Assembly (NCBI RefSeq): GCF_947331435.1
Contig: NZ_CAMZOF010000013.1
Span: forward strand, 62,001 to 126,000
Length of the DNA stretch: 64,000 bases
Reading direction: 5' to 3'
Source: Pelagibius sp. Alg239-R121
GTDB lineage: Bacteria > Pseudomonadota > Alphaproteobacteria > Kiloniellales > Kiloniellaceae
Each line of letters opens with the position of its first letter. Within the stretch, counting starts at the first letter, position 1. Below are positions 4,871 through 12,588 of this stretch, in pieces. The notes below the pieces were generated by a model. That model was not told the DNA's origin. It made no database searches and worked only from the letters and a program-made list of their open reading frames with translations. The position numbers and the translations under genes are program-made.

Positions 4871-5263
4871 ATGAAACAGTGCATTTCTGCAGTGGCGCTC
4901 GTCATCGAAGACTATGACGCTGCGATCGCATTTTATTGTGACAAGCTCGGTTTTGATCTGATCGAAGACAACGAACTCGCGCCTGGCAAACGCTGGGTGC
5001 TGGTTGCACCGCCCGGATCGGAAGAGACCCGCATCCTCTTGGCCAAGGCCGACAACGATGAACAGCTACGCCGGATCGGCGATCAGACCGGCGGCCGCGT
5101 GCTCCTCTTTCTCCGCACCGATGACTTTCACCGGGACTACGAAAGGATGTGCGCGAAGGGCGTCACCTTCCTGGAGTCGCCACGTGAGGAAGACTATGGG
5201 ACGGTTGCTGTCTTCACCGATCTCTACGGCAACAAATGGGATCTGATTTCACCCAAAGTCTGA
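4871..5263 (+). CDS. VOC-superfamily (glyoxalase/dioxygenase-fold) protein
   Basis: 130 aa, a single VOC module pair. It opens with a typical strand (QCISAVALVIEDYDAAIAFYCDKLGF) continuing the beta-alpha-beta pattern, and closes with the family ending GTVAVFTDLYGNKWDLI. VOC proteins bind a divalent metal and act as lyases, dioxygenases or resistance proteins; the substrate cannot be told here. The palindromic repeat at 4822-4860 lies immediately upstream, and no clear Shine-Dalgarno is seen. It is convergent with the M23 peptidase gene. Confidence 0.85.
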   Translation: MKQCISAVALVIEDYDAAIAFYCDKLGFDLIEDNELAPGKRWVLVAPPGSEETRILLAKADNDEQLRRIGDQTGGRVLLFLRTDDFHRDYERMCAKGVTFLESPREEDYGTVAVFTDLYGNKWDLISPKV

Positions 5264-5308
5264 CTGTTTATTTGGGTAGAAGGCGGTGTCCATCGCACGC
5301 CTGTCCGA

Positions 5309-6334
5309 TTAGCGAAGATCCACCGGAAGATCAGACTTGATGACCGCTTTCCCGTTGCGAATGACAGTGAAGACGGCGTGATAGTTACCCGCCGGCCAAC
5401 CACGGGCAGGGCGCTTTTTCCCCGCGAACAACATGTACTGGGCTTTGTTTCTATCGAGCGTCGCCGTATTACGGGCCAACTCGCCCCTGGGACTGACAAG
5501 CGTGGTGATGATTTGATCGTTCTTTCTGAGATTGATCGCCCAACCCCAGGCCACCAGCGCGCGTGAAGACATAGCGGGCATGAAACCCTGCACTGTTCCG
5601 CGCTCGACATCTCCGATTTTTACCGGACCTTCGGAGAAGCCGATGTGGAGCAATTGCGAGGCCTGATACTCCAACTTCGCGAGTGTCTGTGTGGACCAGA
5701 GTGGCGCCGACCCCGCGCCGCAGGCCGGACCGCCTTCAGCCCCTCGGAAGGGATCGATGGTCTTGCCGTCCTTCCGGACCGACAGGTGAACATGAGGGAA
5801 GGATGCGTTTCCCGAGTAACCGACCAGGCCAAGCCGATCACCACGCGCCACGACGTCGCCTTCCTTCACGGTGAGCGAACCTTTGCGAAGATGGCAGTAT
5901 TGGGTCTGCCAGCCATCTTCGTGCGTGATCACAACACCGTTGCCGCACTCCTTGTTTTGAACAGCCGCCCGGTCGGCTTTGGTTTTGACGAGGCGATCCT
6001 GCGTCCCATCACGCAGACCTGTAATTTGCCCGGCTGCCGATGCAACAACTGGAATGCCGCGCGCGACGTCAGCCAGAGTCCTGACCCGAAAGTCGGTGCC
6101 CTTGTGCCCGTCATAGGTCGCAGAACCGCAGGCATAGTCCTGTTTCGTGGGGCCTGGATCGACATCAACGTACTGCTGGATAAAACAATTGCTGCCGATT
6201 TCACATTCAAGAGGCAAGGAGAGTCCCATTTCGCTTGCTGGATCGGAGTCACGAAAAAAATACCATATTGCGCCGACGACAACAGCAATGGCGCACAACG
6301 CGAGTCCGGCCCTGTACCAGCGATTTTCCATCAT
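5309..6334 (-). CDS. Membrane-anchored M23 (LytM) family metallopeptidase
   Basis: 341 aa. One N-terminal membrane segment (~residues 9-27) leaves the rest periplasmic. The M23 zinc-site residues are present: GHKGTDF (H77, D81) and FPHVHLSV (H181-x-H183), plus a catalytic-site His in QYCHL (H148). The core spans ~70-195, and the C-terminal ~140 residues are an unassigned beta-rich domain. The family cuts peptide cross-bridges in peptidoglycan. With metal ligands intact it is predicted to be active. It stands alone next to the queuosine genes with no evident link to them. Confidence 0.88.
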   Translation of the reverse strand: MMENRWYRAGLALCAIAVVVGAIWYFFRDSDPASEMGLSLPLECEIGSNCFIQQYVDVDPGPTKQDYACGSATYDGHKGTDFRVRTLADVARGIPVVASAAGQITGLRDGTQDRLVKTKADRAAVQNKECGNGVVITHEDGWQTQYCHLRKGSLTVKEGDVVARGDRLGLVGYSGNASFPHVHLSVRKDGKTIDPFRGAEGGPACGAGSAPLWSTQTLAKLEYQASQLLHIGFSEGPVKIGDVERGTVQGFMPAMSSRALVAWGWAINLRKNDQIITTLVSPRGELARNTATLDRNKAQYMLFAGKKRPARGWPAGNYHAVFTVIRNGKAVIKSDLPVDLR

Positions 6335-6414
6335 GTTTTCGGTTCACCTAAAACTAACCGTGAGCTTTTTGAATAAGATTGGCGAGTATAGATGGTTGCC
6401 TCAGGACCGCTTGT

Positions 6415-7545
6415 CTAGCTCTCGCTATTCCATTCCGCCAACACTTCGGGATCACTTTCCCGAGCTCTGTGCTGTTCACACAACGTTGCGGCGTCCCCGT
6501 CCGGAGCAAGCTGTCTGAGTGCCCAGACCGCCATGGCCCGCACCAGAGGAGAAGCGTCATCCAGAAGGATCTTCACCACATCGAGGTGATCCTCTGCAGA
6601 ACCGCTGTTACCGATCGCGATCAGGACGTTGCGTACGAAGCGGTCCCGGCCGACGCGTTTGATCGGCGAGCCGGAAAAGACCTGCCGGAACCCGGGGTCG
6701 TCCAACATGGCCAGATCTCGCAGGCGCGGTGCGGTCAGTTCGACCCGCGGCAGGAAGGCCTCTTCGCCGGTGGGTTCGGCGAACTTGTTCCAGGGACAGA
6801 CGGCGAGGCAGTCGTCGCAGCCATAGATCCTGTTGCCCATCGGCTTGCGGAATTCCCGCTCAATATGACCTTTGTGCTCGATGGTCAGGTAGGAAATACA
6901 GCGCCGCGCATCAATCCGGTAAGGCGCCGGGAAGGCCTCGGTCGGGCAGACGTCAAGACAGCGCCTGCAGGAGCCACAGTGATCGATCTCCGCAGAGTCC
7001 GGAGTGAGGTCCAGGCTCGTGAAAACCTCGCCGAGAAAAAACCAAGAGCCGGCCTCTCGCGAGACCAGGTTGCTGTGCTTGCCCTGCCAGCCGATACCGG
7101 CGCGCGCCGCCAGCGGCTTTTCCATCACCGGCGCGGTATCGACGAAAACCTTCACGCCGGCCTGGTGTTCCTGGTGCAGCCAGCGCGCGAGCGCCTTGAC
7201 CCGCTTTTTCAGGATGTCGTGATAATCCTTGTTGCGCGCATAGACCGAGATATTGCCGCGCTCGGGACGTGCGAGCAGCTCCAGCGGATTGTGCGATGGA
7301 CCGTAGTTGAGGCCGACCACAATCACGCTTCTGGCGTCGGGCCATAGGACTTGCGGATTGGCACGGCGCGCTTGCGTCTCCGCCATCCAGCCCATGTCGC
7401 CGTGAAAGCCTTGATCAAGGTAGCTGCGCAGGTGTTCCTTGGCGTGCGCGCCCAGGGCTGCCGGCGCAAAGCCCACGGCATCGAAGCCAAGCGCCAGCGC
7501 CTGATCTCGAATAACTTCTTTGGGCTCAAGCGGCGCGTTGGTCAT
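6415..7545 (-). CDS. queG: Epoxyqueuosine reductase
   Basis: 376 aa, normal length for QueG. It performs the last step of queuosine synthesis, reducing epoxyqueuosine in tRNA to queuosine with a cobalamin cofactor and two [4Fe-4S] clusters. Two ferredoxin-type motifs are visible (CGSCRRCLDVCP and CDDCLAVCPW), and a C-terminal HEAT-like segment typical of the longer form. It is 12 bp downstream of tgt on the same strand, so queA-tgt-queG looks like one operon. Confidence 0.96.
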   Translation of the reverse strand: MTNAPLEPKEVIRDQALALGFDAVGFAPAALGAHAKEHLRSYLDQGFHGDMGWMAETQARRANPQVLWPDARSVIVVGLNYGPSHNPLELLARPERGNISVYARNKDYHDILKKRVKALARWLHQEHQAGVKVFVDTAPVMEKPLAARAGIGWQGKHSNLVSREAGSWFFLGEVFTSLDLTPDSAEIDHCGSCRRCLDVCPTEAFPAPYRIDARRCISYLTIEHKGHIEREFRKPMGNRIYGCDDCLAVCPWNKFAEPTGEEAFLPRVELTAPRLRDLAMLDDPGFRQVFSGSPIKRVGRDRFVRNVLIAIGNSGSAEDHLDVVKILLDDASPLVRAMAVWALRQLAPDGDAATLCEQHRARESDPEVLAEWNSES

Positions 7546-7557
7546 ATCGTCATTTTT

Positions 7558-9784
<2,227 letters not shown>

Positions 9785-10242: not shown

Positions 10243-10783
10243 CGTCGCGCCGCAGGTTCTCGTCGCTCGCCGGTACCTTCAGACCTTTGGTGTGTCCACT
10301 GGCCTGTTCTTCGACCACGTCTTGGCCAGGTCTTTGACCAAGGACTCGGTCCGATCACGATCCGGGTCGCTTATCATCTGAACTGCATCGCCAACAGGGA
10401 TGACCGGCAAATGAAGGTTGGAGTCAAAAATATTTACAGAATCGCAATTAAGTCAATAACATTATGTTTTATAAGGAAAAAATAGAAAATATTTTACTCT
10501 TTTACGCCCTATGATCTGTAAAATATGTAAAATTTTGGGTGTCATACTCTGGTTTGACCGGGAGGCGTTCAGCAGGCTGTGACTGGTCGATGGAATGACG
10601 AAAACAATCAAGAACGATCAGGCTCTCATCCATTGGGTTGGAGGGCGATTTACGTTCTTGATTAAAACAATCAAGAACGATCGCTCTCGAGAGCCTGATC
10701 GTTTTTCACTGATGCAGTGAAAAGCGTGAATCAGTCTCTCATCCATTGGGTTTGAGGGCGATTTACGTTCTTGATTAAAACAA
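10243..10783. other. Gene-poor intergenic stretch with repeats
   Basis: No credible gene. It contains an AT-rich segment (10440-10540) with two direct TGTAAAAT motifs at 10517-10536, a half copy of the palindromic repeat (10601-10619) and two full copies (listed separately). Small open frames here are made by the repeats themselves. Confidence 0.6.
10623..10687. repeat. 65-bp direct repeat, copy 1, with internal hairpin
   Basis: Identical to copy 2 at 10736-10800 except for one base. It contains a perfect inverted repeat at 10653-10679 with arms CGTTCTTGATT and AATCAAGAACG and loop AAAAC. Between the copies is a second hairpin (10703-10723, arms TTTTCACTG/CAGTGAAAA, loop ATG). Confidence 0.9.
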
Positions 10784-10800
10784 TCAAGAACGATCGCTCT
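10736..10800. repeat. 65-bp direct repeat, copy 2, overlapping the end of the regulator gene
   Basis: Second copy, 64/65 identical, with the same hairpin at 10766-10792. The stop codon (10784-10786) and last few codons of the ScfR-type gene lie inside it, so the repeat has supplied the gene's current 3' end. Confidence 0.9.
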
Positions 10801-12322
10801 CCAGGATCGCCGGGAAGGCACGCTGGCGGCAGTTCTTGCGTGCACAGAGACGGCAGCTCACGCCGACCGGAACGACGATGCTGCGGTTGGCGAGGTTGAT
10901 GTCGTCGGCGTAGACGATTCCGGGAGCGAATTTGATGTCACAGCCGATCCCAACGGCAAAGTGGCTCTTGGGGCTGTGATGCCCGCCTTCTGCCTTCACG
11001 ATGCTGCGGGCCAAACAGAAAAAGGTGCTGCCGTCGGGCATCTGCGAGACCTGCAGATTGGTCTGCCCGGGGGTCAGGAAGGCGGAATGGAGATTCAGCC
11101 GGGGACAGGCGCCGCCGTAGCGGGCAATGCGCAGACCCGATGCGCTGAAGCGTTTGGAGATATTACCGGCGATATCGACACGGACGAAATGGAGGGGGAT
11201 GCCGGGATTGTCGGGCCGCTGCAGGCTGGAGAGACGCTGACAGGCCTGTTCGAAACTCACGCCGAAGCGCCAGGTCAGCTGATCCAGGTCGTAACGCAGG
11301 TCCTGTGCCGTCACGAGAAAATGCTCATAGGGCATCATCACAGCGGCAGCGACATAGTTCGCCATGACCTCACGGGCAAGATCGCGCGCGGCGTTCGATG
11401 AGAGATGCGAGCCGGCAATCAGGCTTTCCAGTTCTGCGCTGTAGTGCCGGACCGCCAGACTTTGCGCCAGCCGAAAGCAGCGGCTGCTCAGGACGGGGCT
11501 GCGGGCTTTGGCAAGTCCGCTCTCCGGTGGGGCGCCGGTCTCCAATCGGCGCCACAGCGCGGACAGGGTGCCGAAGCGCCGCTCCGGATCGGTCTCCTCC
11601 GACCCCAGTCCGGCATCGCTGCGCAGGCGCTTGGCAGCTTCCTCCAAGGCAGGGAAGTGATTGCTGTGCTCATGAATGAAATCGTCGAGTTCTTCGAGCG
11701 GTGGCGGGGCCTGTTCGCTGCGCGGCAGGCTGTCGAGAGTCGTCTGCTCGATCATCCGGGTCATGATGGTTGCGAGCTTACGGCTTTCTTCGGCTACGAC
11801 GCCGATAAAGCGTTGGCGCTGTTCCGGTTCCAGGTTTTCGTGATCCTCGAGAATTTCCGAGAAAGACAGGATCGATGTCAGCAGCGTGCGTAACTCGTGG
11901 GTCGAGGTGGAGAAAAAAGAGTCGTCGGACAGGCGTTCACCCAGCGCCTGAACTTCACTGCGCGAATTTCGATAGGCGTGATAAAGCATCAGGATCGCCT
12001 GGCAGATGGCCGGTGCCGCGCGAACGGCCTCGTTCAACTCGTCGCGCTTGATCGCGGTGTCCCGGAAAAAGGGATCGCCGAAGAGTTCGTTCAGATCTGC
12101 GAGCAGTCGGCTCTCATCGTCTTGTGAAAAGGACTGAAGATCGACTCCGTAGAGGTCGGAAAGCTTGAACAGAAGCGGTAAAGTCAGTGGCCGCTGATTG
12201 TGTTCGATCAAATTTAGATAGCTGGCAGAAATTCCCACGCCCTTTGCCATCTCGAGCTGGGTCAGGCTCCGCTCCCGGCGCAGCCGGCGTACCTTACTGC
12301 CTAACAACGCTTTTTTGGCCAT
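10784..12322 (-). CDS. ScfR/RamB-type XRE regulator with an inserted HisKA-like phosphoacceptor segment
   Basis: 512 aa. Residues ~8-62 are an XRE helix-turn-helix (LTQLEMAKGVGISASYLNLIE). The C-terminal half matches the short-chain fatty acyl regulator architecture: an IrrE-like segment near 310-370 and a Cys-containing terminal domain (CRLCARKNCRQRAFP, DUF2083-like). Between them, residues ~135-195 look like a histidine kinase DHp domain: an H-box THELRTLLTSI with H142, then EEQRQRF-like and EESRKLATIM helices. No ATPase domain follows. RamB/ScfR members sense acyl-CoA status and control acetate/propionate genes. It is divergent from a sodium:solute symporter, its likely target. The final codons lie in a repeat. 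Confidence 0.85.
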   Translation of the reverse strand: MAKKALLGSKVRRLRRERSLTQLEMAKGVGISASYLNLIEHNQRPLTLPLLFKLSDLYGVDLQSFSQDDESRLLADLNELFGDPFFRDTAIKRDELNEAVRAAPAICQAILMLYHAYRNSRSEVQALGERLSDDSFFSTSTHELRTLLTSILSFSEILEDHENLEPEQRQRFIGVVAEESRKLATIMTRMIEQTTLDSLPRSEQAPPPLEELDDFIHEHSNHFPALEEAAKRLRSDAGLGSEETDPERRFGTLSALWRRLETGAPPESGLAKARSPVLSSRCFRLAQSLAVRHYSAELESLIAGSHLSSNAARDLAREVMANYVAAAVMMPYEHFLVTAQDLRYDLDQLTWRFGVSFEQACQRLSSLQRPDNPGIPLHFVRVDIAGNISKRFSASGLRIARYGGACPRLNLHSAFLTPGQTNLQVSQMPDGSTFFCLARSIVKAEGGHHSPKSHFAVGIGCDIKFAPGIVYADDINLANRSIVVPVGVSCRLCARKNCRQRAFPAILESDRS

Positions 12323-12357
12323 CGAACATTCCTCGACCGCCGCATCGATTTACAAAC

Positions 12358-12372
12358 TTTACAAAATGTAAA
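12358..12372. promoter_or_regulatory. Candidate operator for the ScfR-type regulator
   Basis: Perfect palindrome TTTACAAAATGTAAA in the region between regulator and symporter. A related half lies immediately upstream (12349-12357), and a second palindrome TTTACAGTAAA is at 12389-12399. The RamB/ScfR family binds AT-rich TTTGCAAA-like sites, so autoregulation and symporter control are inferred. Confidence 0.55.
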
Positions 12373-12588
12373 AAGACTAGGTTATGTATTTACAGTAAAA
12401 CAATTGCAAAATCAAGAGGTTATAGTAAATTTCCCTCGTCTGTGGATTGTTTACAAAAGCGAATCCATTTGGCGAAATCATGGATACGCTCCTCTCCACG
12501 GCGAAGTCGGGGTCACCCAGTCACTTCTGTAATGGGCGCCACGCGACCCCGTTCTTGACTTGGATCAGGAAAGAGGGAGGAGCCTGAT

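Follow-up and report, generated by a model that had tools for sequence, protein, structure and literature searches.

The window analysed here, a 64-kb stretch of Pelagibius DNA, contains a gene for a regulator of the ScfR type whose DNA-binding and sensing parts are separated by what looks like the phosphoacceptor (DHp, or HisKA) domain of a histidine kinase. The locus raises two questions: where a one-component regulator obtained such a domain, and which signal reaches it. The reading that we prefer, at a probability of roughly 60%, is that the DHp was captured from a kinase and now would serve as a docking site for a phosphorylated receiver (REC) protein, itself the target of a symporter-fused kinase, so that docking changes DNA binding by the regulator.

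The encoded protein (Table 1) consists of four domains recognised by Pfam in the order HTH_3, HisKA, Peptidase_M78 (IrrE-like) and ScfR C-terminal. This order bears out the first-pass annotation, which was made from the letters alone and had placed a DHp segment at residues ~135-195, with an H-box around H142, between the HTH and the ScfR sensing part. The HisKA, IrrE-like and ScfR profiles are all significant, and no HATPase_c match is found in the protein up to E 10, in keeping with the ATPase domain having been reported as absent. H142 is the histidine of the H-box THELRTLL. The motif C490-x2-C493-x4-C498 is a putative set of 4Fe4S ligands together with C406, and each of these cysteines occurs in 63/68 ScfRs with a DHp insert (DHp-ScfRs) and 27/27 canonical ScfRs. 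The 4Fe4S cysteines of the mycobacterial regulator PrpR are Cys363 and C447-x2-C-x4-C455 (PMC6765138). Against the RamB equivalog NF038139 the protein scores 375.1 bits, below the curated cut-off of 700, and a canonical ScfR paralogue from the same genome likewise falls under it with 462.2 bits. We class the protein as a variant of the ScfR kind, and neither as a kinase nor as a RamB equivalog. Short-chain acyl-CoA is the input to be expected of it, and a putative 4Fe4S cluster is probably a second.

Table 1. Positions of the ScfR gene, its domains and its surroundings in the window, and of exonuclease proteins at related loci
Feature	Position	Strand	Evidence or detail
ScfR-type transcription factor with inserted DHp domain, 512 aa	10784..12322	-	ORF and Pfam architecture
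HTH_3 DNA-binding domain, residues 11-63	12134..12292	-	Pfam E 3.6e-11
HisKA/DHp insert, residues 135-197	11732..11920	-	Pfam E 1.2e-8, 35.3 bits, cut-off 26.9
H142 codon, candidate phosphoacceptor	11897..11899	-	read from ORF sequence
IrrE N-terminal-like (Peptidase_M78) stretch, residues 306-365	11228..11407	-	Pfam E 8.4e-13
ScfR C-terminal domain, residues 367-506	10805..11224	-	Pfam PF09856 E 1.1e-55, 188.3 bits, cut-off 24
C490-x2-C493-x4-C498, putative 4Fe4S ligands together with C406	10829..10855	-	sequence
Candidate operator before the ScfR start: two TTTACAAA/TTTGTAAA boxes	12349..12365	.	starts 12349, 12358
Third TTTACAAA/TTTGTAAA box, same ScfR-symporter intergenic stretch	12450..12457	.	
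Divergent sodium:solute symporter, 651 aa	12589..14544	+	SSF PF00474 E 3.8e-29
PAS/DHp-like/exonuclease proteins, ~700 aa	L061:2559-4670, L062:1594-3705, L053:9429-11576, L065:17177-19288, L112:708-2819		
PAS/DHp-like/exonuclease protein, own-genome copy	L195:5219-7703 (G000:C1)		REC 5219-5596, then exonuclease protein 5598-7703

In the AlphaFold model of the protein (mean pLDDT 88.8) the DHp segment forms two helices, at residues 135-160 and 166-196. Residues 206-512 have the fold of PrpR (6cyj_A, Z 35.1, 2.4 Å, 300 residues), and residues 119-199 superpose on the kinase HK853 (4jau, Z 9.6, 3.3 Å, 79 residues), a value too weak, in the case of a helical hairpin, to stand as evidence on its own. 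The best 50 Foldseek matches listed for the model are to PrpR, IrrE-type and HTH proteins, with no kinase among them. An orthologue in another genome (G036) is 84% identical. Compared with this orthologue, the DHp (residues 132-200) has dN 0.084 with dS saturated, and its first helix has dN 0.07 and dS 1.9; the domain is under purifying selection. A chance match to HisKA was considered and is ruled out by the Pfam significance, by the match to a kinase of the same genome and by conservation in the family.

The family alignment comprises 95 sequences, 68 with the DHp insert and 27 canonical, with one ScfR kept per locus. The canonical sequences come from the same order and class and include the paralogues of the window's own genome. 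Of the 45 class genomes with a DHp-ScfR, 5 + 33 were covered (G347, G092, G317, G194, G322, G280 and G123 being left out), and loci having the kinase but no ScfR stand outside the 68. At the site of the insert all 27 canonical ScfRs have 6-18 residues, compared with ~70 in the DHp-ScfRs, so that the layout is, as had been suspected at first, not the standard one. The same is seen within the genome itself, where the paralogues on contigs C2 and C3 align with the window's ScfR over residues ~2-132 and 204-506 with few residues between, and an ScfR on contig C1 matches it over its whole length. On an ScfR tree built with the insert columns removed, presence of the insert requires one change (SH-aLRT 99), although the tree does not polarise the ancestral state. 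We read this change as a single gain because in PrpR the stretch joining the DNA-binding and sensing parts (DII, residues 81-152) is described, in the portion of the source available, as possibly disordered (PMC6765138).

Many copies of the domain fall short of the Pfam model. Of 62 ScfRs scanned, 52 have the insert, but HisKA is found at E 0.01 or better in only 26 of the 62; many relatives are therefore assigned the domain by the family alignment and not by Pfam. The second DHp-ScfR of the window's genome (L060:8071-9642, on C1) is an example, with a HisKA score of 20.0 bits, below the Pfam cut-off. A REC gene adjoins this second copy, and its 18-kb stretch contains no symporter-kinase. A scan of genome contigs returned one locus, and all ScfRs found in plasmid searches had less than 60% identity; two of the plasmid hits, the Paracoccus and Neorhizobium loci named below, were examined further.

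The origin of the insert is indicated by its nearest relatives. Outside the ScfRs, the segment of this genome closest to it is the HisKA domain of a large protein on contig C10 (51%, E 6.9e-15), followed at some distance by a match of E 6e-5. The C10 protein carries SSF, HisKA and HATPase_c domains and is thus a symporter-fused kinase. It is the sole full-length match of its kind in the genome, where 38 other places match its kinase part. The likeness between insert and kinase extends before the H-box, with RLSDDSFFSTSTHELRTLLTSILSFSEIL in the window's protein and RLKDDFLTTVSHELRTPLTSIRSFSEIL in the kinase. On this sequence kinship, the insert is best read as derived by capture of the DHp of an SLC5-symporter kinase.

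The residues retained after the capture suggest which partner the domain may have. Histidine occupies position 142 in 62/68 DHp-ScfRs, and the free variation that would have spoken against a phosphoacceptor is not seen. The six losses are to Tyr (L045, L134), Phe (L130, L131, L136) and Gln (L132). T or S stands at H+4 in 64/68, and helix 1 is also conserved in its lower part, with R(H+10) in 61/68, S(H+11) in 63/68, E(H+14) in 63/68 and I(H+15) in 68/68. By contrast, E(H+1) is kept in 10/68 and lost in 58/68, and P(H+5) occurs in 0/68, whereas 57 symporter-kinases all have H, E(H+1), T(H+4) and P(H+5). Residues of the E(H+1) and P(H+5) type are associated with autophosphorylation by the ATPase domain. 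In the aligned sequences, the ScfR DHps have kept the His, H+4 and lower helix 1 and have lost the residues linked to autophosphorylation. The copy in the window is less changed than most, retaining E143 and R145; its Pro is absent and Leu replaces Arg at H+10.

This pattern bears on the simplest alternative, in which the ATPase domain of the symporter-kinase would phosphorylate H142 directly, either in trans or within a mixed DHp bundle. Such an arrangement would be consistent with the insert being closest to the DHp of the C10 kinase and with the HELRT that the window's copy shares with that kinase. Nevertheless, because E(H+1) is lost in so many members and P(H+5) in all of them, direct phosphorylation is disfavoured as a general mode and was set behind the other readings. 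The linkage of the kinase gene to the DHp-ScfRs is also looser than that of REC (43 vs 51 of 68, see below), and overall we regard direct phosphorylation as improbable. The initial proposal that a partner kinase or phosphotransfer protein could act through this domain is therefore upheld in part: conserved REC and symporter-kinase neighbours fit it, but direct phosphorylation by a kinase ATPase domain does not fit well as the general mode. The structural observation itself is confirmed. From the residues kept and lost, REC is the more likely partner of the ScfR DHp than the kinase ATPase domain.

The genes surrounding the DHp-ScfRs point in the same direction. In the fullest clusters the order is divergent symporter, ScfR-DHp, a REC of ~125 aa, a small protein and the symporter-kinase. 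A REC gene on the same strand follows at most 1.5 kb downstream of 51/68 DHp-ScfRs, compared with 0/27 canonical ScfRs (4/27 of which have less than 1 kb of room); L054, where the contig ends at the gene, was left out of the linkage table. A symporter-kinase lies within 1.6 kb on the same strand in 43/68. Most of the linked RECs are open frames of 121-152 aa, and the two that were scanned have a receiver domain alone above the cut-off. The DHp with its His, REC and the symporter-kinase stand in a row in Paracoccus ferrooxidans (CP038202.1) and in Neorhizobium sp. SOG26 (NZ_CP025513.1). No REC was found in the 64-kb window. The closest REC in the window's genome (54% to that of L043) sits before the symporter-kinase on C10; with REC and kinase on another contig, the pairing in this genome rests on similarity.

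The small protein between REC and the symporter-kinase (L059:6042-6437, L043:7935-8186 and others) is conserved in position, and has no Pfam or NCBIfam match in the two examples scanned. A 149-aa ORF in G056 (L058:10348-10797), near REC and symporter-kinase genes, has a full H-box, GHELKTPLTSIRSLSEIL, and is a candidate stand-alone DHp or a piece of a split kinase.

All 51 REC-linked copies keep His142, compared with 10/16 of the unlinked ones (Fisher 8e-5, with rows that are not independent and one row cut off). The losses are confined to four genera and represent about three changes on the tree. In an independent-pairs sign test, in which 1-3 of 6 pairs differ in His, the direction is consistent but the association is not significant (median p 0.5). 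The association of REC linkage with His thus rests on about three losses.

These observations also bear on the possibility that the insert is a spacer or a means of dimerisation, with no role in phosphosignalling. DHp domains do dimerise, and the His has been lost in 6/68. However, neither the conservation of H, H+4 and H+9 to H+16 nor the tie to REC genes would be expected of a spacer, and we hold this explanation, too, to be improbable. A slightly better, if still unlikely, alternative is that the ScfR DHp acts as a sink or phosphatase, dephosphorylating or titrating phosphorylated REC, with the ScfR feeding back on the pathway of the kinase instead of being under its control. In HisKA kinases the residue at H+4 takes part in phosphatase activity, and retention of H and H+4 T/S with loss of most E(H+1) fits such a role. 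Insertion beside the DNA-binding part, however, suggests an output, and since the linked RECs look single-domain, the output must lie with another protein.

Co-divergence was considered as proof of contact with REC and set aside, being not specific. In 42 trios, taken from those of the 68 in which REC and kinase are both linked, distances between ScfR DHps correlate with those of REC (0.87), the kinase DHp (0.84), the symporter part of the kinase (0.88) and its ATPase domain (0.62), and with those of the ScfR's own C-terminal domain and HTH (0.72 each). Partial correlations are 0.245 for REC and 0.183 for the kinase ATPase domain, each with a permutation p of 0.002. The analysis is not decisive, because the symporter part correlates as well as REC does and the partial correlation of the ATPase domain is also positive. 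We take it to mean that the three genes move together, which is no proof of contact.

The co-occurrence extends to whole genomes. In the class sample, a DHp-ScfR is present in 45/385 genomes, and a symporter-kinase, searched with its symporter part at E 1e-60, is found in 44 of these 45 compared with 41 of the 340 others. The phylum sample has matches in 32 of its 398 genomes (the share of the 398 lying outside the class is unstated), all in the window's own class, which by the named relatives is Alphaproteobacteria. Genomes with a symporter-kinase open frame of at most 1,060 aa have a DHp-ScfR in 44/52 cases and those with longer frames only in 0/33, a split given no weight because the limit was set after the lengths had been seen and the length of an open frame is not that of its protein.

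The intergenic region upstream of the ScfR offers a candidate for its targets. Four boxes of TTTGTAAA or its complement occur in the window, three of them between the ScfR and the divergent symporter. In the 250 nt before DHp-ScfRs the density of this 8-mer, chosen as the commonest in the same upstream stretches in which it was then counted, is 3.0 per kb, and 36/68 have a box. Before canonical ScfRs it is 1.04 per kb (5/27 have a box), and the background over 1,044 kb of loci is 0.065 per kb. Two boxes lie 32 bp apart in L048, L051, L120 and L138. RamB of Paracoccus has two boxes that are nearly identical and separated by 18 bp, an arrangement called common for ScfR sites in the accessible part of that report (PMC10370305). 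A relative of the symporter divergently adjoins the DHp-ScfR in 15/67 other loci and in 0/27 canonical loci. The symporter is possibly co-regulated with the ScfR, and the ScfR's own promoter and the divergent symporter gene are the likely targets.

At the other end of the gene, a 75-nt direct repeat (10617-10691 and 10730-10804) has copies 96% identical and 113 bp apart, the second of which overlaps the 3' end of the ScfR gene. At 10596 there is a third copy of a 24-nt portion of the repeat.

In the preferred reading, the DHp came from an SLC5-symporter histidine kinase and was captured between the helical region on the HTH side and the sensing domains. The symporter-kinase would phosphorylate the single-domain REC, and phosphorylated REC would dock on the DHp of the ScfR, using the surface with which it meets the kinase. 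The docked REC would alter DNA binding, whether through its binding as such or through phosphoryl transfer to H142. Binding of phosphorylated REC through the DHp, in the manner of DivL, is what the linkage and the conservation may suggest. The specific form in which REC passes its phosphoryl group to H142, so that sensing of a nutrient at the membrane and of acyl-CoA in the cytosol meet as phosphohistidine control in one DNA-binding protein, and in which the pathway may feed other DHp-bearing outputs, is a tentative proposal, which we hold to be less likely than not.

A possible second output of the same pathway occurs near the symporter-kinase in several relatives, where proteins of ~700 aa combine PAS, a DHp-like stretch lacking the His and a C-terminal RNase_T exonuclease (Table 1). 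These adjoin a REC in the window's genome and in L061, L062, L063 and L053, and hint at reuse of the docking domain. This reuse is taken only as a lead, because Pfam HisKA is below the cut-off or absent in the four that were scanned.

Single-domain response regulators lack an output domain, and their targets are often unknown. The anatomy described here suggests a candidate output for one of them, namely a transcription factor carrying the kinase's own docking domain. If so, domain capture would have connected a one-component regulator to a two-component pathway, and SLC5 'transceptor' kinases would be tied to the acyl-CoA regulation of carbon use. The partner set is concrete (kinase, REC and ScfR-DHp) and is present in many alphaproteobacterial genomes, as the class sample indicates.

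The protein resembles the known members of the ScfR family (RamB, PrpR/MccR and PccR) in its HTH, IrrE-like and ScfR C-terminal domains, its 4Fe4S cysteines and the PrpR fold of residues 206-512, and differs from them in that none of the 27 canonical members carries a DHp. Judged by its description in the source passages available, Pden_1785 of Paracoccus denitrificans is probably a member of the DHp group, and through it the neighbourhood has already been glimpsed in the literature; those passages mention neither an inserted domain nor a mechanism. Among the matches listed from a mainly open-licence literature there is no mention of HisKA or DHp in an ScfR, and within the literature searched neither the insertion nor its origin nor the proposed mechanism seems to have been described. 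The SLC5/STAC histidine kinases CbrA, CrbS and RpuS, according to the excerpts consulted, are fusions of symporter and kinase that control the use or uptake of carbon sources (PMC5715377, PMC9100948), and CrbS signals via CrbR, a LuxR-family activator (PMC5715377). Unlike in the CrbS-CrbR pair, the adjacent REC here is without an evident output domain, and it is the linked transcription factor that bears a DHp. DHp-type phosphotransferases of the ChpT/Spo0B-like kind exchange phosphate with REC through the DHp His, and the DHp-ScfRs, by their sequences, mostly keep this His and the T/S at H+4. In DivL of Caulobacter, Tyr stands in place of the His. The kinase core of DivL has been turned to sensing, via the regulator-docking interface, whether the response regulator DivK is phosphorylated (PMC4211667), and the DivL-DivK pair is the nearest precedent found for a kinase part acting in this way. 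DivL is, however, kinase-derived and has a kinase region of its own, whereas the DHp-ScfR is a transcription factor without an ATPase domain in which the His is mostly kept.
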